Assembly (NCBI GenBank): GCA_937128235.1
Contig: CAKZMG010000287.1
Coordinates: 1-33,314, forward strand
Source of the DNA: an uncultured Verrucomicrobiales bacterium
Lineage (GTDB): Bacteria; Verrucomicrobiota; Verrucomicrobiia; Verrucomicrobiales; Akkermansiaceae
DNA: 33,314 bases
Direction of reading: 5' to 3'
The translations under genes and the position numbers were made by a program. A model generated the notes under the pieces. It worked only from the letters and a program-made list of their open reading frames with translations, had not been told where the DNA came from and did no database searches. How positions within the stretch are numbered: the stretch's first letter is position 1; each line of letters opens with the position of its first letter. Shown here piece after piece: positions 11,449 to 15,780 of this stretch.

Positions 11449-11976
11449 TCAAATCTTTCCTAAGTCACATTTTAAATGATTTACAGCACTAGGTTTCGCG
11501 GCTTTGTGGCTTTGGCTGCCAAATTTTTCTGCGAGTATTTCAGAGCGAAAAGCAAAAATCTTCTTCAGCTGAGCTCTCACAAACAGCACGTGCACAATTT
11601 TCCCTAGAATGCCAAACGGTAATAAATAGTGAACCTGATCTTGCATCAAGACGCCATTCTCAGTCTCCGTAAACGTATGCCGATGATGCCAGATCTTATA
11701 CGGACCAGAGCGCTGGTCATCGATAAAATAATCATTCTCCCGCACATGGGTAATCTCAGTCACCCAGTTCATCCACACGAGTGGCATGAGCCTAATCTTA
11801 TAGCTGATGATCTGCCCTTGAACCATAGAATCATGCGAGCAGGTGAGGATCTTAAACTGCAAATTCTTAGGGGTAAGTTTTTCTAAATTTCTAGGAGTAG
11901 AAAAGAAATCCCATGCCTCGTCCATCGATATAGGAAGTTCTTGTTCTGAATTAATTACATGTATTGCGCTGCTCAT
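11449..11976 (-). CDS. SRPBCC family protein (polyketide cyclase/START-like)
   Basis: 175 residues. It has the START/SRPBCC pattern: an early helix with a DEAWDFFSTPRNLEKLTP-type segment (about 19-36), a run of beta strands, the WHHRHTF segment in the middle, and a long C-terminal amphipathic helix (about 128-152) ending near FRSEILAEKFG. Members bind hydrophobic ligands. This subgroup is often annotated as cell division inhibitor or SRPBCC protein without a proven role. It is a single gene whose upstream region holds MITE copy 1, beginning about 130 bp before its start. Confidence 0.75.
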   Translation of the reverse strand: MSSAIHVINSEQELPISMDEAWDFFSTPRNLEKLTPKNLQFKILTCSHDSMVQGQIISYKIRLMPLVWMNWVTEITHVRENDYFIDDQRSGPYKIWHHRHTFTETENGVLMQDQVHYLLPFGILGKIVHVLFVRAQLKKIFAFRSEILAEKFGSQSHKAAKPSAVNHLKCDLGKI

Positions 11977-12104
11977 AGTTTCAGTATGTATTGAAACTAT
12001 GATAAATAAAGTTTTTATTTTTGTAAAATAGTTTTTTTTATACCAGCCTGTCTGTTTTTCTAATTGCGAAGCACAATCTTAAAACATTTAAAATAAACAC
12101 TATA

Positions 12105-12264
12105 GGGAGCTTCTGGCAACCTGCTTTATGACAGATACGCAGGAAAAATTTTCATTATCAAGGCGGAAAAAGACCCGCTATCCAAAGATAATGGTTCTTT
12201 TTCTAACGAAGAAAATGGAAATTTTAACAAGTAGATGGCATAAATGAGGTTGCCAGAAGTTCCC
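12105..12264 (+). mobile_element. MITE-like element, copy 1 (160 bp)
   Basis: The 160-bp unit has 18-bp terminal inverted repeats of consensus GGGANCTTCTKGCAACCT: GGGAGCTTCTGGCAACCT at the left and the complement of GGGAACTTCTGGCAACCT at the right. It is flanked on both sides by TATA (12101-12104 and 12265-12268), a 4-bp target duplication. Its reverse complement aligns without gaps to 14802-14961, with about 20 mismatches in 160 positions. It has no coding capacity, so movement would need a transposase supplied elsewhere. Confidence 0.85.
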
Positions 12265-12424
12265 TATAGTCTCTTTTGTTTTGCAGATTGCTATCATACA
12301 ACGGCAGGGAGTGATTGCCAATCCCTCCGAGTGGGCGAGTTCTGCTATTGAGCTATTCTCTATCTCCTCCTAGCCCTAGTGGCCAAATTTCACTGTCCAC
12401 TGTCGGTCTGGAAAGTAGGTACAT

Positions 12425-12459
12425 AAAAAATCCCTCATATTCATAGATAAAAGGGATTT
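12425..12459 (-). terminator. rho-independent terminator of the YegP-like gene
   Basis: Read on the minus strand, AAATCCCT (complement of 12452-12459) pairs with AGGGATTT (complement of 12428-12435). The second arm runs into T residues (complement of the A-run 12425-12430). It lies about 85 nt after the stop of the YegP-like gene. The 16-nt loop is longer than usual. Confidence 0.5.
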
Positions 12460-12543
12460 GCAGTCAGTGGGGGATAACTGAACTAGATGGAAACTGGAGA
12501 CATCCAGTCGATTTTTTCGTGGTTTCTCTTGGTTTCTATTGGT

Positions 12544-12870
12544 TTAGCAGAGGTCTTTCACGCGGGAGTCAGCGATGTTGTTGCCGACTGACATGATGCC
12601 ATTTTTGAGTCCGCTTTCAGATTTATACATCTGGCTTTGACCGATGACTTGACCGTTGGTTGATTTGAGAACGAAGTATTTTCTGCCGTCTTTTGATTCT
12701 TTGATCTCGTAGCGGTTTTCGTCTGCTCCGTTAGTTAGGACTGATTTGACTCCGGTGACGCAGCCTACTTTGTCCTTATATGCCTGACCTGTCAGGATGA
12801 TCTGTCCATTGGCAGCTTTTAGTCTGTAGTGGAATTTTTTCGTCTTTTCGCTTTGGTAGATTTCAAACAT
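12544..12870 (-). CDS. YegP-like protein with two DUF1508 repeats
   Basis: 108 residues made of two tandem DUF1508 units. The first (about 1-50) reads FEIYQSEKTKKFHYRLKAANG, and the second (about 53-104) repeats the pattern with YEIKESKDGRKYFVLKSTNG. Each unit shows the family sequence F/Y-x-hydrophobic-A/S-x-N-G-Q, then a Y-x-x-K/S-x-x-hydrophobic-x-x-G/A-I/V stretch. E. coli YegP has the same architecture and length, and its function is unknown. It is cytoplasmic, with no signal sequence. It is the last gene in the block between the two MITE copies and has its own terminator. Confidence 0.85.
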   Translation of the reverse strand: MFEIYQSEKTKKFHYRLKAANGQIILTGQAYKDKVGCVTGVKSVLTNGADENRYEIKESKDGRKYFVLKSTNGQVIGQSQMYKSESGLKNGIMSVGNNIADSRVKDLC

Positions 12871-12974
12871 AGTGATTTCATTGTTGTTGTTATTAGTGAG
12901 CGTATTTCAGCTTTTTCATAACTTTAGACAGTGAAAACCAGAGTTTGGTCACTTTTTACTGCGAAATTAGAGGT

Positions 12975-14117
12975 TTATTCTACTATCGCGTATATATCTC
13001 CCTTATGGCTAATGATATACATTTCCCCTTGAGGGTCCATTCCAAATGAGGAGATGTGGGTAATAGGGCGTCCTCGCTGGGCGAAATAGTTAGTCCAGTG
13101 GTGCTCTGCGGTGATGTTTTTTCCATCATAGGCGATACTCCAGATCTTTGGTTTGACCCAGTCTGCGTAGAAGTAGTGGCCGTAAATGGATTTTATTTTT
13201 CCACGGTAAACATAGCCGCCCGTGATGGATTTTCCCACCCCGTGGTCGTATTCATAGATGGGATCAATGGCGGCTTTTGGCTTTTCTCCGCCGACTGATT
13301 TTTTAGGTGTGGCATGGGTTCCTTCTCTGGTTCTCCAGCCAAAGTCTGCTCCACGGAGCTGCTCGCTGGTCACGGCGTTAATTTCTTCCCAGTGGTTTTG
13401 CCCTACATCAGCAAGGTAGAGTGTGCTAGTCTGAAAATCCCAGCTGCATCTCCAGGGGTTACGTAGCCCGTAAGCGTAAATTTCATCACGGCTTTCGGGG
13501 TCTGAGATGAATGGATTGTCTTCAGGGATAACGTAGCCTTGCTCGACTGAGACATCGATGCGGAGTAATTTTCCTAATAACTGAGTTTTGTCCTGTGCGC
13601 GTTGTCTGGGGTCATTTCCGCTACCACCATCACCTAGACCGATGTAGAGGTAGCCGTCTGGGCCGAAACCTATCCAGCCACCGTTGTGGTTTCTGAAATC
13701 TTGGGGGACAGTGAGGAGTTTTTCTTCTTTAAATCCAGCTTGGTTCTTGAGTGTGTGAAATCTTGAGACTTGGGTGTCTCCATTGGTGTCTGTGTAGTAG
13801 AGATAAAAAAGTCCATCGGTTTTGTAATTAGGCGAAAATGCCATGCCTAAGAGACCTTGCTCATTCATTCTGATGTTGATTTGGTGGCGGATGTCTAGAA
13901 ATGGAGTGGGGAGAATTTTCTTTGCGTTGCGGTCATAGATCATGATGCGTCCAGCTTTCTCTAGGATGTAGAGAGCATCTGTGGAGTCAGCGGGAGCGGT
14001 TAGAAAAACGGGTCTGTCTAAGCAATCGATGATTTTTTCTGCACGCGGGAAGTTTTGTGCAGTGAGATTGATATGGGTGAGTAAGATGAGAGCGAGGATG
14101 GTGTGTAGGAATTTCAT
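12975..14117 (-). CDS. secreted PQQ-dependent sugar dehydrogenase (GSDH family)
   Basis: 380 residues. A signal peptide (about 1-20) precedes a six-bladed propeller of the glucose/sorbosone dehydrogenase family. Motifs include RPVFLTAP (35-42), GLLGMAFSPNY (88-98), H144 in FRNHNGG (likely catalytic base), GFGPDGYLYIGLGDGG (150-165) and YGLRNPWR in the later blades. The family oxidises aldose sugars with pyrroloquinoline quinone in the periplasm. The true substrate is unknown, and some relatives have no demonstrated activity. It overlaps the sigma factor stop by 4 nt (ATGA), so the two are translationally coupled. No PQQ synthesis genes are in the window. Confidence 0.85.
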   Translation of the reverse strand: MKFLHTILALILLTHINLTAQNFPRAEKIIDCLDRPVFLTAPADSTDALYILEKAGRIMIYDRNAKKILPTPFLDIRHQINIRMNEQGLLGMAFSPNYKTDGLFYLYYTDTNGDTQVSRFHTLKNQAGFKEEKLLTVPQDFRNHNGGWIGFGPDGYLYIGLGDGGSGNDPRQRAQDKTQLLGKLLRIDVSVEQGYVIPEDNPFISDPESRDEIYAYGLRNPWRCSWDFQTSTLYLADVGQNHWEEINAVTSEQLRGADFGWRTREGTHATPKKSVGGEKPKAAIDPIYEYDHGVGKSITGGYVYRGKIKSIYGHYFYADWVKPKIWSIAYDGKNITAEHHWTNYFAQRGRPITHISSFGMDPQGEMYIISHKGDIYAIVE

Positions 14118-14746
14118 GACTGATCTAGGTAATGGCTGAGTGATTCTCGGAGTGAGTTTCTGGCGCGGAATAGCTGGCTTTTCACAGCGGATACAGATAG
14201 TTCTAGCACATCTGCGATTTGTTCGTAAGGCATATTTTCATAGCGTCTGAGAATGACTGCTAATCGCTGCTTCTCCGGTAATTTATTGATCGCTAAGTCA
14301 ACTTGGCTTTTCAGTTCGGCTTGTAGGATTTCTTGGTCTGGGCAGCTTGCGACTCTGTCCTCCATCTGGGTGAAGCTATTTTCTTCCTGTTCTTCGAGTG
14401 AATGTTCCTTCTTACGTGATTTGCGCTTGGTTTCATTGAAGACGAGATTTCTGGTGATGGTGTAGAGAAAGGTAGTAAACTTTGCCTTCACCTCATAGCG
14501 CGGAGCAGCTTTCCAGAGACGGATGAAGACTTGCTGAGCGATGTCTTCTGCTTCTGAGGCATTGCCTAACATTTTAGCCACAGTTCCAATTACCGCATTT
14601 TGATGCAACTCAATGATCTGCTGAAAAGCGTTCTCAGCATCTCCCGCATCTCCTTTCATCGTAGCCCGCTTAACCCGTAGCATCAGCTCCACGTTGATGG
14701 CATTTTCGTCATCGTCTGGGCTGTTTGAAGTTTTGGGTGTCGGCAT
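14114..14746 (-). CDS. RNA polymerase sigma-70 factor, ECF type
   Basis: 210 residues. Region 2 (about 40-110) includes the AEDIAQQVFIRLWKAAPRY segment that contacts core polymerase and the -10 element. Region 4 (about 150-205) has the helix-turn-helix segment PYEQIADVLELSVSAVKSQLFRAR. The linker between them is acidic and Q-rich (about 118-140). No anti-sigma gene with a membrane helix follows. Instead the stop codon overlaps the start of a secreted sugar dehydrogenase gene (ATGA), which may be its direct partner or target. MITE copy 2 lies about 55 bp upstream and may shape its promoter or leader. Confidence 0.9.
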   Translation of the reverse strand: MPTPKTSNSPDDDENAINVELMLRVKRATMKGDAGDAENAFQQIIELHQNAVIGTVAKMLGNASEAEDIAQQVFIRLWKAAPRYEVKAKFTTFLYTITRNLVFNETKRKSRKKEHSLEEQEENSFTQMEDRVASCPDQEILQAELKSQVDLAINKLPEKQRLAVILRRYENMPYEQIADVLELSVSAVKSQLFRARNSLRESLSHYLDQS

Positions 14747-14801
14747 AATGTCAGTGCTAAATAGAACACCGCTTTAAGCTACTAGTTGCAATTTATTTTA
14801 A

Positions 14802-14961
14802 GGGATCTTCTTGCAACCTCATTCATTCCATCTACTTGTTAAAATTTCGATTTTCTGCGTTAAAAAAAGAACCATTATCTTTGGATAGCGGGTCTTTTTC
14901 AGCCTTGCAAATCAAAATTTTCACTTCGTAGCTGAAATAAAGCAGGTTGCAAGAAGAACCC
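14802..14961 (-). mobile_element. MITE-like element, copy 2 (160 bp, inverted relative to copy 1)
   Basis: This is the same 160-bp unit as 12105-12264 in the opposite orientation, about 87% identical by eye and without indels. Its ends are GGGATCTTCTTGCAACCT and the complement of GGGTTCTTCTTGCAACCT. It is flanked by TTAA on both sides (14798-14801 and 14962-14965), a 4-bp target duplication. The right-hand TTAA contains the trpC stop codon, so the element lies directly against trpC and upstream of the sigma factor gene. Confidence 0.85.
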
Positions 14962-15780
14962 TTAAGCTTCTATCACATCTGGATCTGAGGGAGGAGATGA
15001 TGCGCGGAGGTCTAGGTAAGCATTTATTTCCTCGGCAGGTGTGTGGGCACGCATGAGGGTCTCGCCTACGAGAACTGCGTTCGCACCTGCATTCATGACG
15101 CGCTGTGCATCCGCAGGATTCTTGATGCCTGACTCACTGACTAAAATCACATCATCAGGAACCTCATCGACGAGTCGCTCGGTGATGCCGAGGTCGGTGG
15201 TGAAGGTTTTTAGGTTCCTATTATTGATGCCAATGAGGTCTGCTCCGAGATCGAGTGCAGTTTCCATTTCTGGTAGGTCATGAACTTCTAACAGGACATC
15301 GAGCTGGAAGTCTTTGGCGGTGTTATAGAGTTTCTTGAGCTTCTCCGCATCCATGGCGGCAGCAATGAGTAGCACAGCATCCGCACCGGCGATCACTGCC
15401 TCGTAGATCTGAGCTTCATGCACGATGAAGTCCTTCCTGAGGCATGGTATCGGGGACTCGCGGGCGATTCTCGATAGATAGGAGAGATGCCCTTTGAAGA
15501 AATTCTCATCTGTGAGGATGGACATGCAGTTTGCTCCACCATGGATGTACATGTTAGCCTGGCGCACTGGATCGAAGTTCGGGTCGATGATCCCCGCAGA
15601 TGGGGATGCTTTCTTGACCTCTGCGATGACTGCGAGCTGGTCAGGACCGAGATCTAAGGCAGATCTAAATCCTTTGAACTCGTTTCTCTCCAGGGCGGCT
15701 GCGCGGAGTTTGGCAGTGCGAGGAATGAGGGATTCTACCTCTTGTTTCTTGTAGTTGATGATTTCAGTGAGCTTGTCCAC
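14962..15780 (-). CDS. trpC: indole-3-glycerol phosphate synthase
   Basis: 272 residues, a typical monofunctional TrpC. It closes the indole ring of tryptophan: 1-(2-carboxyphenylamino)-1-deoxyribulose 5-phosphate to indole-3-glycerol phosphate. Conserved motifs include IAEVKKASPS (52-61, with E54 and the lysines), PCLRKDFIV with K116, LLEVHD, GINNRNLKTF, LVSESGI and GANAVLVGE for phosphate binding. No other trp gene is adjacent. The last residues (about 258-272, ASSPPSDPDVIEA) lie beyond the conserved barrel. The TAA stop belongs to the TTAA duplication of MITE copy 2, so the insertion may have reset the C-terminus. Confidence 0.95.
   Translation of the reverse strand: MDKLTEIINYKKQEVESLIPRTAKLRAAALERNEFKGFRSALDLGPDQLAVIAEVKKASPSAGIIDPNFDPVRQANMYIHGGANCMSILTDENFFKGHLSYLSRIARESPIPCLRKDFIVHEAQIYEAVIAGADAVLLIAAAMDAEKLKKLYNTAKDFQLDVLLEVHDLPEMETALDLGADLIGINNRNLKTFTTDLGITERLVDEVPDDVILVSESGIKNPADAQRVMNAGANAVLVGETLMRAHTPAEEINAYLDLRASSPPSDPDVIEA

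Follow-up and report, generated by a model that had tools for sequence, protein, structure and literature searches.

Two short inverted elements bracket a sigma-factor gene, a sugar dehydrogenase gene and a YegP-like gene in an uncultured Verrucomicrobiales bacterium. Are they the ends of a unit that carries these genes, a conserved RNA structure, or two independent insertions of a mobile element, and if the last, what moved them? The window, that is the whole stretch of DNA analysed, is the 33,314-nt contig CAKZMG010000287.1 (assembly GCA_937128235.1), contig C287 of the host genome G000, a 3.86-Mb assembly in 347 contigs that is 94.6% complete. We consider it very probable that both elements are copies of a miniature inverted-repeat transposable element (MITE), a non-autonomous DNA transposon, mobilised in trans by a DDE transposase of the IS5 family of insertion sequences (IS), with duplication of a 4-bp TNNA target. 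In its support, the elements are dispersed in many copies, are often flanked by exact 4-bp duplications and have empty sites; the genus and the family hold IS5-family elements whose ends are similar, and a clan of related elements extends over five genera. The reading also includes, as proposals, a loss of the mover from the host, upkeep of the palindrome by arm pairing, and persistence of insertions at stop codons.

Two 160-bp elements in the window

The elements and their flanks are as follows.

12101..12104, no strand: left target duplication TATA of copy 1 (paralogous empty site in host contig C38)
12105..12264, plus strand: MITE copy 1, 160 bp, forward, CCTGCTTTA end first (sequence comparison)
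12105..12122, plus strand: left terminal inverted repeat of copy 1 (end comparison)
12247..12264, minus strand: right terminal inverted repeat of copy 1 (end comparison)
12265..12268, no strand: right target duplication TATA of copy 1 (flank sequence)
14798..14801, no strand: left target duplication TTAA of copy 2 (orthologous empty site)
14802..14961, minus strand: MITE copy 2, 160 bp, of a more divergent subgroup and inverted relative to copy 1 (sequence comparison)
14802..14819, plus strand: left terminal inverted repeat of copy 2 (end comparison)
14944..14961, minus strand: right terminal inverted repeat of copy 2, one base off the consensus (end comparison)
14962..14965, no strand: right target duplication TTAA of copy 2, which includes the TAA stop (complement of 14962-14964) of the gene for indole-3-glycerol phosphate synthase (IGPS) (flank sequence)

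Each element is exactly 160 bp long, and the two, in opposite orientation, are identical at 140 of 160 bases (87.5%) without indels, as the original prediction, made from the window alone, had it (about 87%). That prediction also gave each copy 18-bp terminal inverted repeats and a 4-bp duplication of its own. Inverted repeats are indeed present at all four ends (GGGAGCTTCTGGCAACCT/GGGAACTTCTGGCAACCT for copy 1 and GGGATCTTCTTGCAACCT/GGGTTCTTCTTGCAACCT for copy 2), but the right end of copy 2 deviates by one base from the consensus then proposed; both duplications are there in the flanks. Stop codons occur in all six frames of the three host copies checked, both window copies among them, in keeping with the earlier statement that neither encodes protein. 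Non-coding and short, the elements fall within the usual length range of MITEs (below about 600 bp). The Rfam scan gave nothing above the gathering score within them, its only matches in the window being two tRNAs elsewhere, and within the searches made the family is, as first supposed, not a recognised one.

Copies and empty sites in the host genome

A similarity search of the host with the element returned 35 match rows, some of which are one copy read on both strands, and among which are 12 near-full-length copies. In all, the genome holds 13 two-ended copies, these 12 and an internally deleted one of 115 bp on C324, besides eight places with a partial or one-ended element (C338, C205, C298, C234, C143, C161, C219, and C82:21643). 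C205 and C298 are probably the halves of one copy split at a contig break. Copy 1 and seven others form a group (96-99% identity to copy 1); four more divergent copies, copy 2 included, are 88-91% identical to copy 1. An exact 4-bp duplication flanks 8 of the 13 two-ended copies (TATA, TCAA, TTTA twice, TAAA, and TTAA three times). Since the non-palindromic TCAA, TTTA and TAAA stand on both sides of their elements, these 4-mers are a target duplication rather than an extension of the inverted repeat. The description of the target as an AT-only palindrome was thus too narrow: of the TWWA duplications looked for at further copies, here and in relatives, TATA, TTAA, TTTA and TAAA were found, but so were TCAA, TCTA and GTTA. 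The target is mostly TNNA, GTTA being an exception among the duplications seen.

Both copies have an empty site. For copy 2 it is orthologous: the host sequence from the IGPS tail to the sigma start, less the element and one TTAA, measures 100 nt, and the alignable junction in G095 also measures 100 nt; nor is there an element at the IGPS-sigma junction of G087, G022, G050, G058 or G066. For copy 1 it is paralogous, and lies in host contig C38, where AAATAAACACTATCGTCTC corresponds, with one base different, to AAATAAACACTATA, element, TATAGTCTC in the window (the site can also be read as AAATAAACACTATCGTCTCTTTTG against AAATAAACACTATA, element, TATAGTCTCTTTTG). An orthologous empty site for copy 1 was not found, the gene at 11449-11976 having no tblastn match in any of six stretches that adjoin YegP or sigma in relatives. 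With dispersed copies, exact duplications and empty sites, the proposal that the elements had moved by transposition is well founded.

The internally deleted copy (L044, G000:C324, 1496-1610) keeps both ends within its 115 bp, and is flanked by ATAA and ATAT at the stop codon of a 301-aa open reading frame (ORF). The end motif occurs at other host places too. Five of them (C95:553, C148, C106, C115, and C237) lack the flanking GGGA; C203, C206, C219, C82:21650, and C161 resemble solo or decayed ends. A tblastn search with pieces of IS5 transposase found no match in the stretches fetched around the host end-motif places, where ORFs were listed for C95 only.

A clan of related elements in the family

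Further copies are not confined to the host. An end-sequence search of 12 genomes of the genus reached G050, G058, G095, and G041, the last with a sister family of MITEs. The 30 loci read in G041 comprise 21 distinct two-ended copies, one repeat of another, and eight that are partial or have improper ends; 14 of the 21 have exact duplications (TTAA, TAAA, TATA, TTTA, TCTA, and GTTA). With a covariance model of 16 G041 and two host copies, strict filters and at most 20 scored candidates per genome, clan members were retrieved in at least 9 of 145 family genomes and at least 5 of 16 genera, both model-source genomes being counted among the nine. At 20 further loci in other genomes, exact duplications are present in 14, and 17 are 158-161 bp long (the rest are 113, 153, and 165 bp). 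The blocks CAGATCAAGGC, TGAATGAATTCATAAGG, and AACGC.GAGATGG are common across genera, and not all are present in host copies.

A DNA similarity search of the 145 family genomes with the 160-mer found only the host among the best five candidates per genome, and sister families surfaced only through the end-sequence search and the covariance model. An exact two-ended pattern matched no stretch across wider genome contigs, from which the host's own records were perhaps excluded. Pairwise, the interiors of host and G041 elements are unconvincingly similar (inner-part z -0.7 to 3.0), homology resting on the multi-family alignment, and the hairpin tip of host copies is unlike that of the other genomes. 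The family is apparently undescribed: our literature search, mostly judged from listings, returned no description of it, of an IS5-type MITE of Verrucomicrobia or of MITE insertion at stop codons, and the family may be in ISfinder.

Several relatives' copies carry one stop-free frame, which one-base length changes shift. A conserved reverse-strand peptide (RNLMNSF..RLDLRK) was considered here and is not claimed, given these length differences and the stops in host copies; variability at one codon position of that frame is, in raw values, 0.81 bits against 0.59 and 0.63.

Two same-orientation copies lie 442 bp apart in another genome (L229, G043:C46:1906-2065 and 2348-2507); they are separate insertions, each with its own TTAA/TTAA and different flanks.

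Insertion at stop codons

Copy 2 sits on the stop codon of IGPS, and it is not alone: 5 of 13 host copies, copy 2 included, and 6 of 21 G041 copies (11 of 34 together) have a duplication that shares bases with the stop codon of an ORF 80 aa long or longer, where genes are ORF calls rather than annotation and flanks were joined by script. Among TNNA sites at which insertion would break no ORF, 6.3-6.4% (weighted) or 3.0-3.7% (unweighted) are expected to touch a stop, the background being some 104 kb of host sequence and, for G041, about 61 kb made up of flanks of copies only. The excess is significant in both genomes (p 0.0009 and 0.0012 weighted; 2.5e-5 and 6.0e-5 unweighted; n=20 for G041, one copy inside an ORF having been left out). 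The signal is weak elsewhere, at 2 of the 20 MITE loci in other genomes; one-ended host places touch a stop in 2 of 10 cases (C219 and C82:21650). Among one-sided IS ends, a few of them chance motif matches, 2 of 34 touch a stop, which is no clear bias. These landings are most simply put down to selection against insertions elsewhere, with targeting of stop codons as a possible alternative. Insertions of this kind may persist because the gene stays whole, its stop codon being supplied again by the duplicated TNNA.

A covarying hairpin

The long hairpin foreseen for a full-length transcript is borne out: as RNA, near-full-length stretches of the two window copies outdo every one of 200 shuffles in folding (z -4.9 and -3.8), and in the consensus fold one long hairpin spans the whole element. 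Its arms covary. Changes on both sides affect 7 of 61 pairs among host copies (2.3 in shuffles, none of 500 reaching the observed value), 8 of 57 pairs in G041 (reached by 33 of 500 shuffles; 29 cells against 11.7, reached by none of 500), and 31 of 52 pairs among 19 clan members (126 cells against 42.9, again reached by none of 500; slid controls give at most 17 pairs and 37 cells), with shuffles that ignore relatedness and with each structure taken from the alignment on which it was tested. With the terminal 24 bp set aside, the palindrome beats nearly all shuffles in 17 of the 19 members (no more than 5 of 200 do as well), the other two being equalled by 16 and 17 of 200. The original prediction had set conserved structure against mobility; here both hold, the mobile copies with empty sites having a covarying hairpin as well.

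It is possible, though we put it forward tentatively, that the entire hairpin is under constraint in an old, family-wide clan of near-constant length (about 159 bp). The arms would stay complementary while the sequence drifts, as the folded element would be the working form, either a hairpin DNA substrate of transposition or the object of repeated arm-to-arm correction; stop codons would be preferred landing places of the elements, since the stop is remade there by the duplicated TNNA and the insertion does no harm.

Rather less probable is a host-conserved structured RNA or terminator that spread as a repeat and acts at mRNA 3' ends. It would account for the strong covariation and for the stop codons touched in the host and G041, and the clan consensus fold is more stable on the forward strand (-45.4 kcal/mol) than on the reverse (-17.8 kcal/mol). 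Clan cell counts lean the same way, with 105 G-T against 35 A-C cells on the union of pairs. Distinct changes do not: G-T and A-C stand at 7:6 and 18:10 and, in the clan, at 35:24 (p 0.19) on the union of pairs and 8:11 on shared pairs, leaving a constraint specific to the RNA strand unsupported. Moreover, the element is co-oriented with the gene in five and reversed in six of the 11 stop-codon copies, no terminator-like site was called within the two window elements, Rfam offers no match, and relatives lack an element at the orthologous site of copy 2. As G-T is not clearly tolerated over A-C in distinct changes, we favour a cause at the level of DNA, in which the palindrome would be kept by arm pairing, one arm correcting the other in a DNA hairpin or the hairpin being needed in the transposition cycle, and not by an RNA function for the host.

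IS5-family elements with matching ends

For the MITE reading, the putative mover is an IS5-family DDE transposase that would recognise ends of about 18 bp, GGG(A/C)NC(T/C)TC(T/C)GGNAACC, move the element and join it to a 4-bp TNNA target that is thereby duplicated; it would have moved these very copies in trans, and its gene would later have been lost from the host, or be absent from its assembly, leaving the family stranded. The original prediction suggested looking for a full-length IS with matching 18-bp ends, and IS with similar ends do occur in related genomes, but none in the host. By eye, 16 of 18 bases are common to the ends of the host MITE and those in G050, and likewise to the GGGCACTTCTGGAAACCT ends of G041, G058, and G095. 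G050 has an 807-bp element (L068, duplication TAAA/TAAA), the left end of which matches that of the host at 16 of 18 bases, and a 429-bp element (L094, TTAA/TTAA); both begin GGGA(A/G)CCTCTGGCAACCG. Within L068 the IS5 model NF033581 recognises two pieces of transposase, at E 2e-6 and 2e-14, each below the full-length cut-off. Longer elements, with longer transposase genes, were found in other genera of the family: a 1312-bp IS in G043 (L162; both ends seen, the contig stopping 3 nt beyond), a 1270-bp IS in G129 (L163; the contig stops at the right end), a left end preceded by TAAA in G137 (L161), and an element of about 1.29 kb in G067 (L165; GCAA/GCAA, with a stop codon within the transposase). 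MITE and IS with similar ends reside together in G043 and G129. A search with the L108/L160 protein found this transposase in 13 of 145 family genomes at E 1e-30.

Contig ends of G058 show the start of an IS5-type transposase in ten matches (L107, L112, L115, L118, L121, L123, L125, and L127-L129), and the element ends read there are GGGCACTTCTGGAAACC(C/T); the pattern suggests that a multicopy IS, perhaps active in recent times, interrupted the assembly.

Several observations weigh against an IS5-family mover or leave it indirect. Genus and family IS5 queries found no such transposase in the 347 host contigs. PF05598 has one host match, just under the cut-off; none of the 11 host PF01609 matches answers to the IS5 query protein, and these we take, from their motifs, to be ISAs1-, IS1182- and IS4-like. 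The sole intact IS5-type gene found in the genus (L160, in G073) has no recognisable matching ends in the scanned sequence. MITE and IS have only their ends in common, no IS with the sub-terminal sequence of the MITE having been found, and 5 of the 13 two-ended host copies lack an exact duplication. Lastly, the target TNNA differs from the YTAR reported for IS5 (PMC10359306), which TTAA fits and TCAA, TTTA, TAAA, TATA, and TCTA do not. We therefore regard the MITE as related to the IS5 family and make no claim of an IS5-like target; since none of this transposase type was found in the host, its copies look stranded.

That another family such as IS1182 was the mover seems quite unlikely. Matches of the IS5-type proteins to the IS1182 model, which stay under its cut-off, and a decayed host gene, L077, presumably IS1182-like, might be counted in favour; yet the transposases of L160, L162, L163, and L164 score 243-260 bits with the IS5 model (cut-off 140) and 99-137 with the IS1182 model (cut-off 270), and around L077 there is only a weak end match with three mismatches.

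The genes between the copies

The genes concerned are these.

12544..12870, minus strand: DUF1508 (YegP-like) gene, bystander (Pfam PF07411; conserved neighbour in relatives)
12975..14117, minus strand: glucose/sorbosone dehydrogenase-like gene, bystander (Pfam PF07995; conserved order in relatives)
14114..14746, minus strand: sigma-70-family (ECF-like) gene, bystander (Pfam PF08281, PF04542, PF07638; conserved order in relatives)
14962..15780, minus strand: IGPS gene, the stop codon of which is the insertion site of copy 2 (Pfam PF00218)

Homologues of IGPS were found at 12 loci, ten of them at 69-93% identity in metagenome-assembled genomes labelled Rubritalea, Akkermansiaceae, Verrucomicrobiales or Verrucomicrobiia, and two at 39% under names of other groups. 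The order IGPS-sigma-dehydrogenase-YegP is kept, with the same orientations, in G087, G095, and G022, all without elements there, and IGPS and sigma are also adjacent in G050, G058, and G066. Collinear in three element-free relatives, the block is therefore ancestral, and the element pair neither carried nor inverted it. The suggestion that the two copies, in opposite orientation around the three genes, form a composite transposon or an invertible segment can be put aside as highly improbable, and is refuted as regards origin, since each has a duplication and an empty site of its own, there is no sign of a block moved as one unit with an outer duplication and absent from empty sites, and the copies fall in different subgroups, which suggests separate arrivals. 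The three genes are bystanders.

Relation to known elements

In kind the family is ordinary, a MITE family tied to IS5-family elements. It is closest to the IS5 group of NF033581 (transpos_IS5_4), in that GGG..C.TC.GG.AACC ends and 4-bp duplications are also those of IS5-type elements in its own genus and family, and the deletion derivatives L068 and L094 display the passage from IS to short element; it differs in having no transposase, an interior not of any IS found, and its own target. MITEAba12 of Acinetobacter and MITECca01 of Cardinium are likewise reported to be short and non-coding, with ends common to transposase-bearing IS, and are tied to the co-resident ISAba12 (9-bp duplications) and ISCca4 (IS982) (PMC6382973, PMC9769881), whereas the present MITE has a 4-bp duplication, a clan in five genera and no mover found in the host. 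Palindromic repeats such as Correia/NEMIS and RUP are described as around 100-160 bp long, with mostly inverted ends and many intergenic locations (PMC2229807). Judged by their descriptions, these differ from the present family in ends and targets (TA and IS630-Spn1 for RUP), as does ERIC, a palindromic bacterial repeat of comparable properties. QMITE2 of Coxiella, according to a review (PMC10969869), lies mainly in 3' untranslated regions, whereas the insertion point of the present MITE is often the stop codon itself.

Breadth, near-constant length, a covarying hairpin and stop-codon landings raise the family above a routine MITE. It ties otherwise unexplained intergenic repeats of Verrucomicrobia to a transposase family, and a false composite-transposon reading is removed. 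The multi-genus set of elements lends itself to two questions: what preserves both the length and the whole palindrome of a bacterial MITE, and does stop-codon insertion reflect targeting or selection?

Other repeats beside copy 1

Immediately right of copy 1, a sequence of about 35 bp (12265-12299, TATAGTCTCTTTTGTTTTGCAGATTG...) recurs nine more times in the host, on C274, C28, C207 (two inverted occurrences that together span 206 bp), C130, C38, C143, C140, and C5. Possibly this sequence is one end of a different mobile element that was the target of copy 1. On C143 a 38-bp MITE fragment (L019, G000:C143, 1324-1361) adjoins this repeat, as though one element had cut the other. Farther right, a repeat of about 97 bp at 12301-12397 (CGGTAGGGAGGGATTGCCAAT...GAGCTAT...) has 13 further host matches at 76-85% identity and is apparently unrelated to the MITE.

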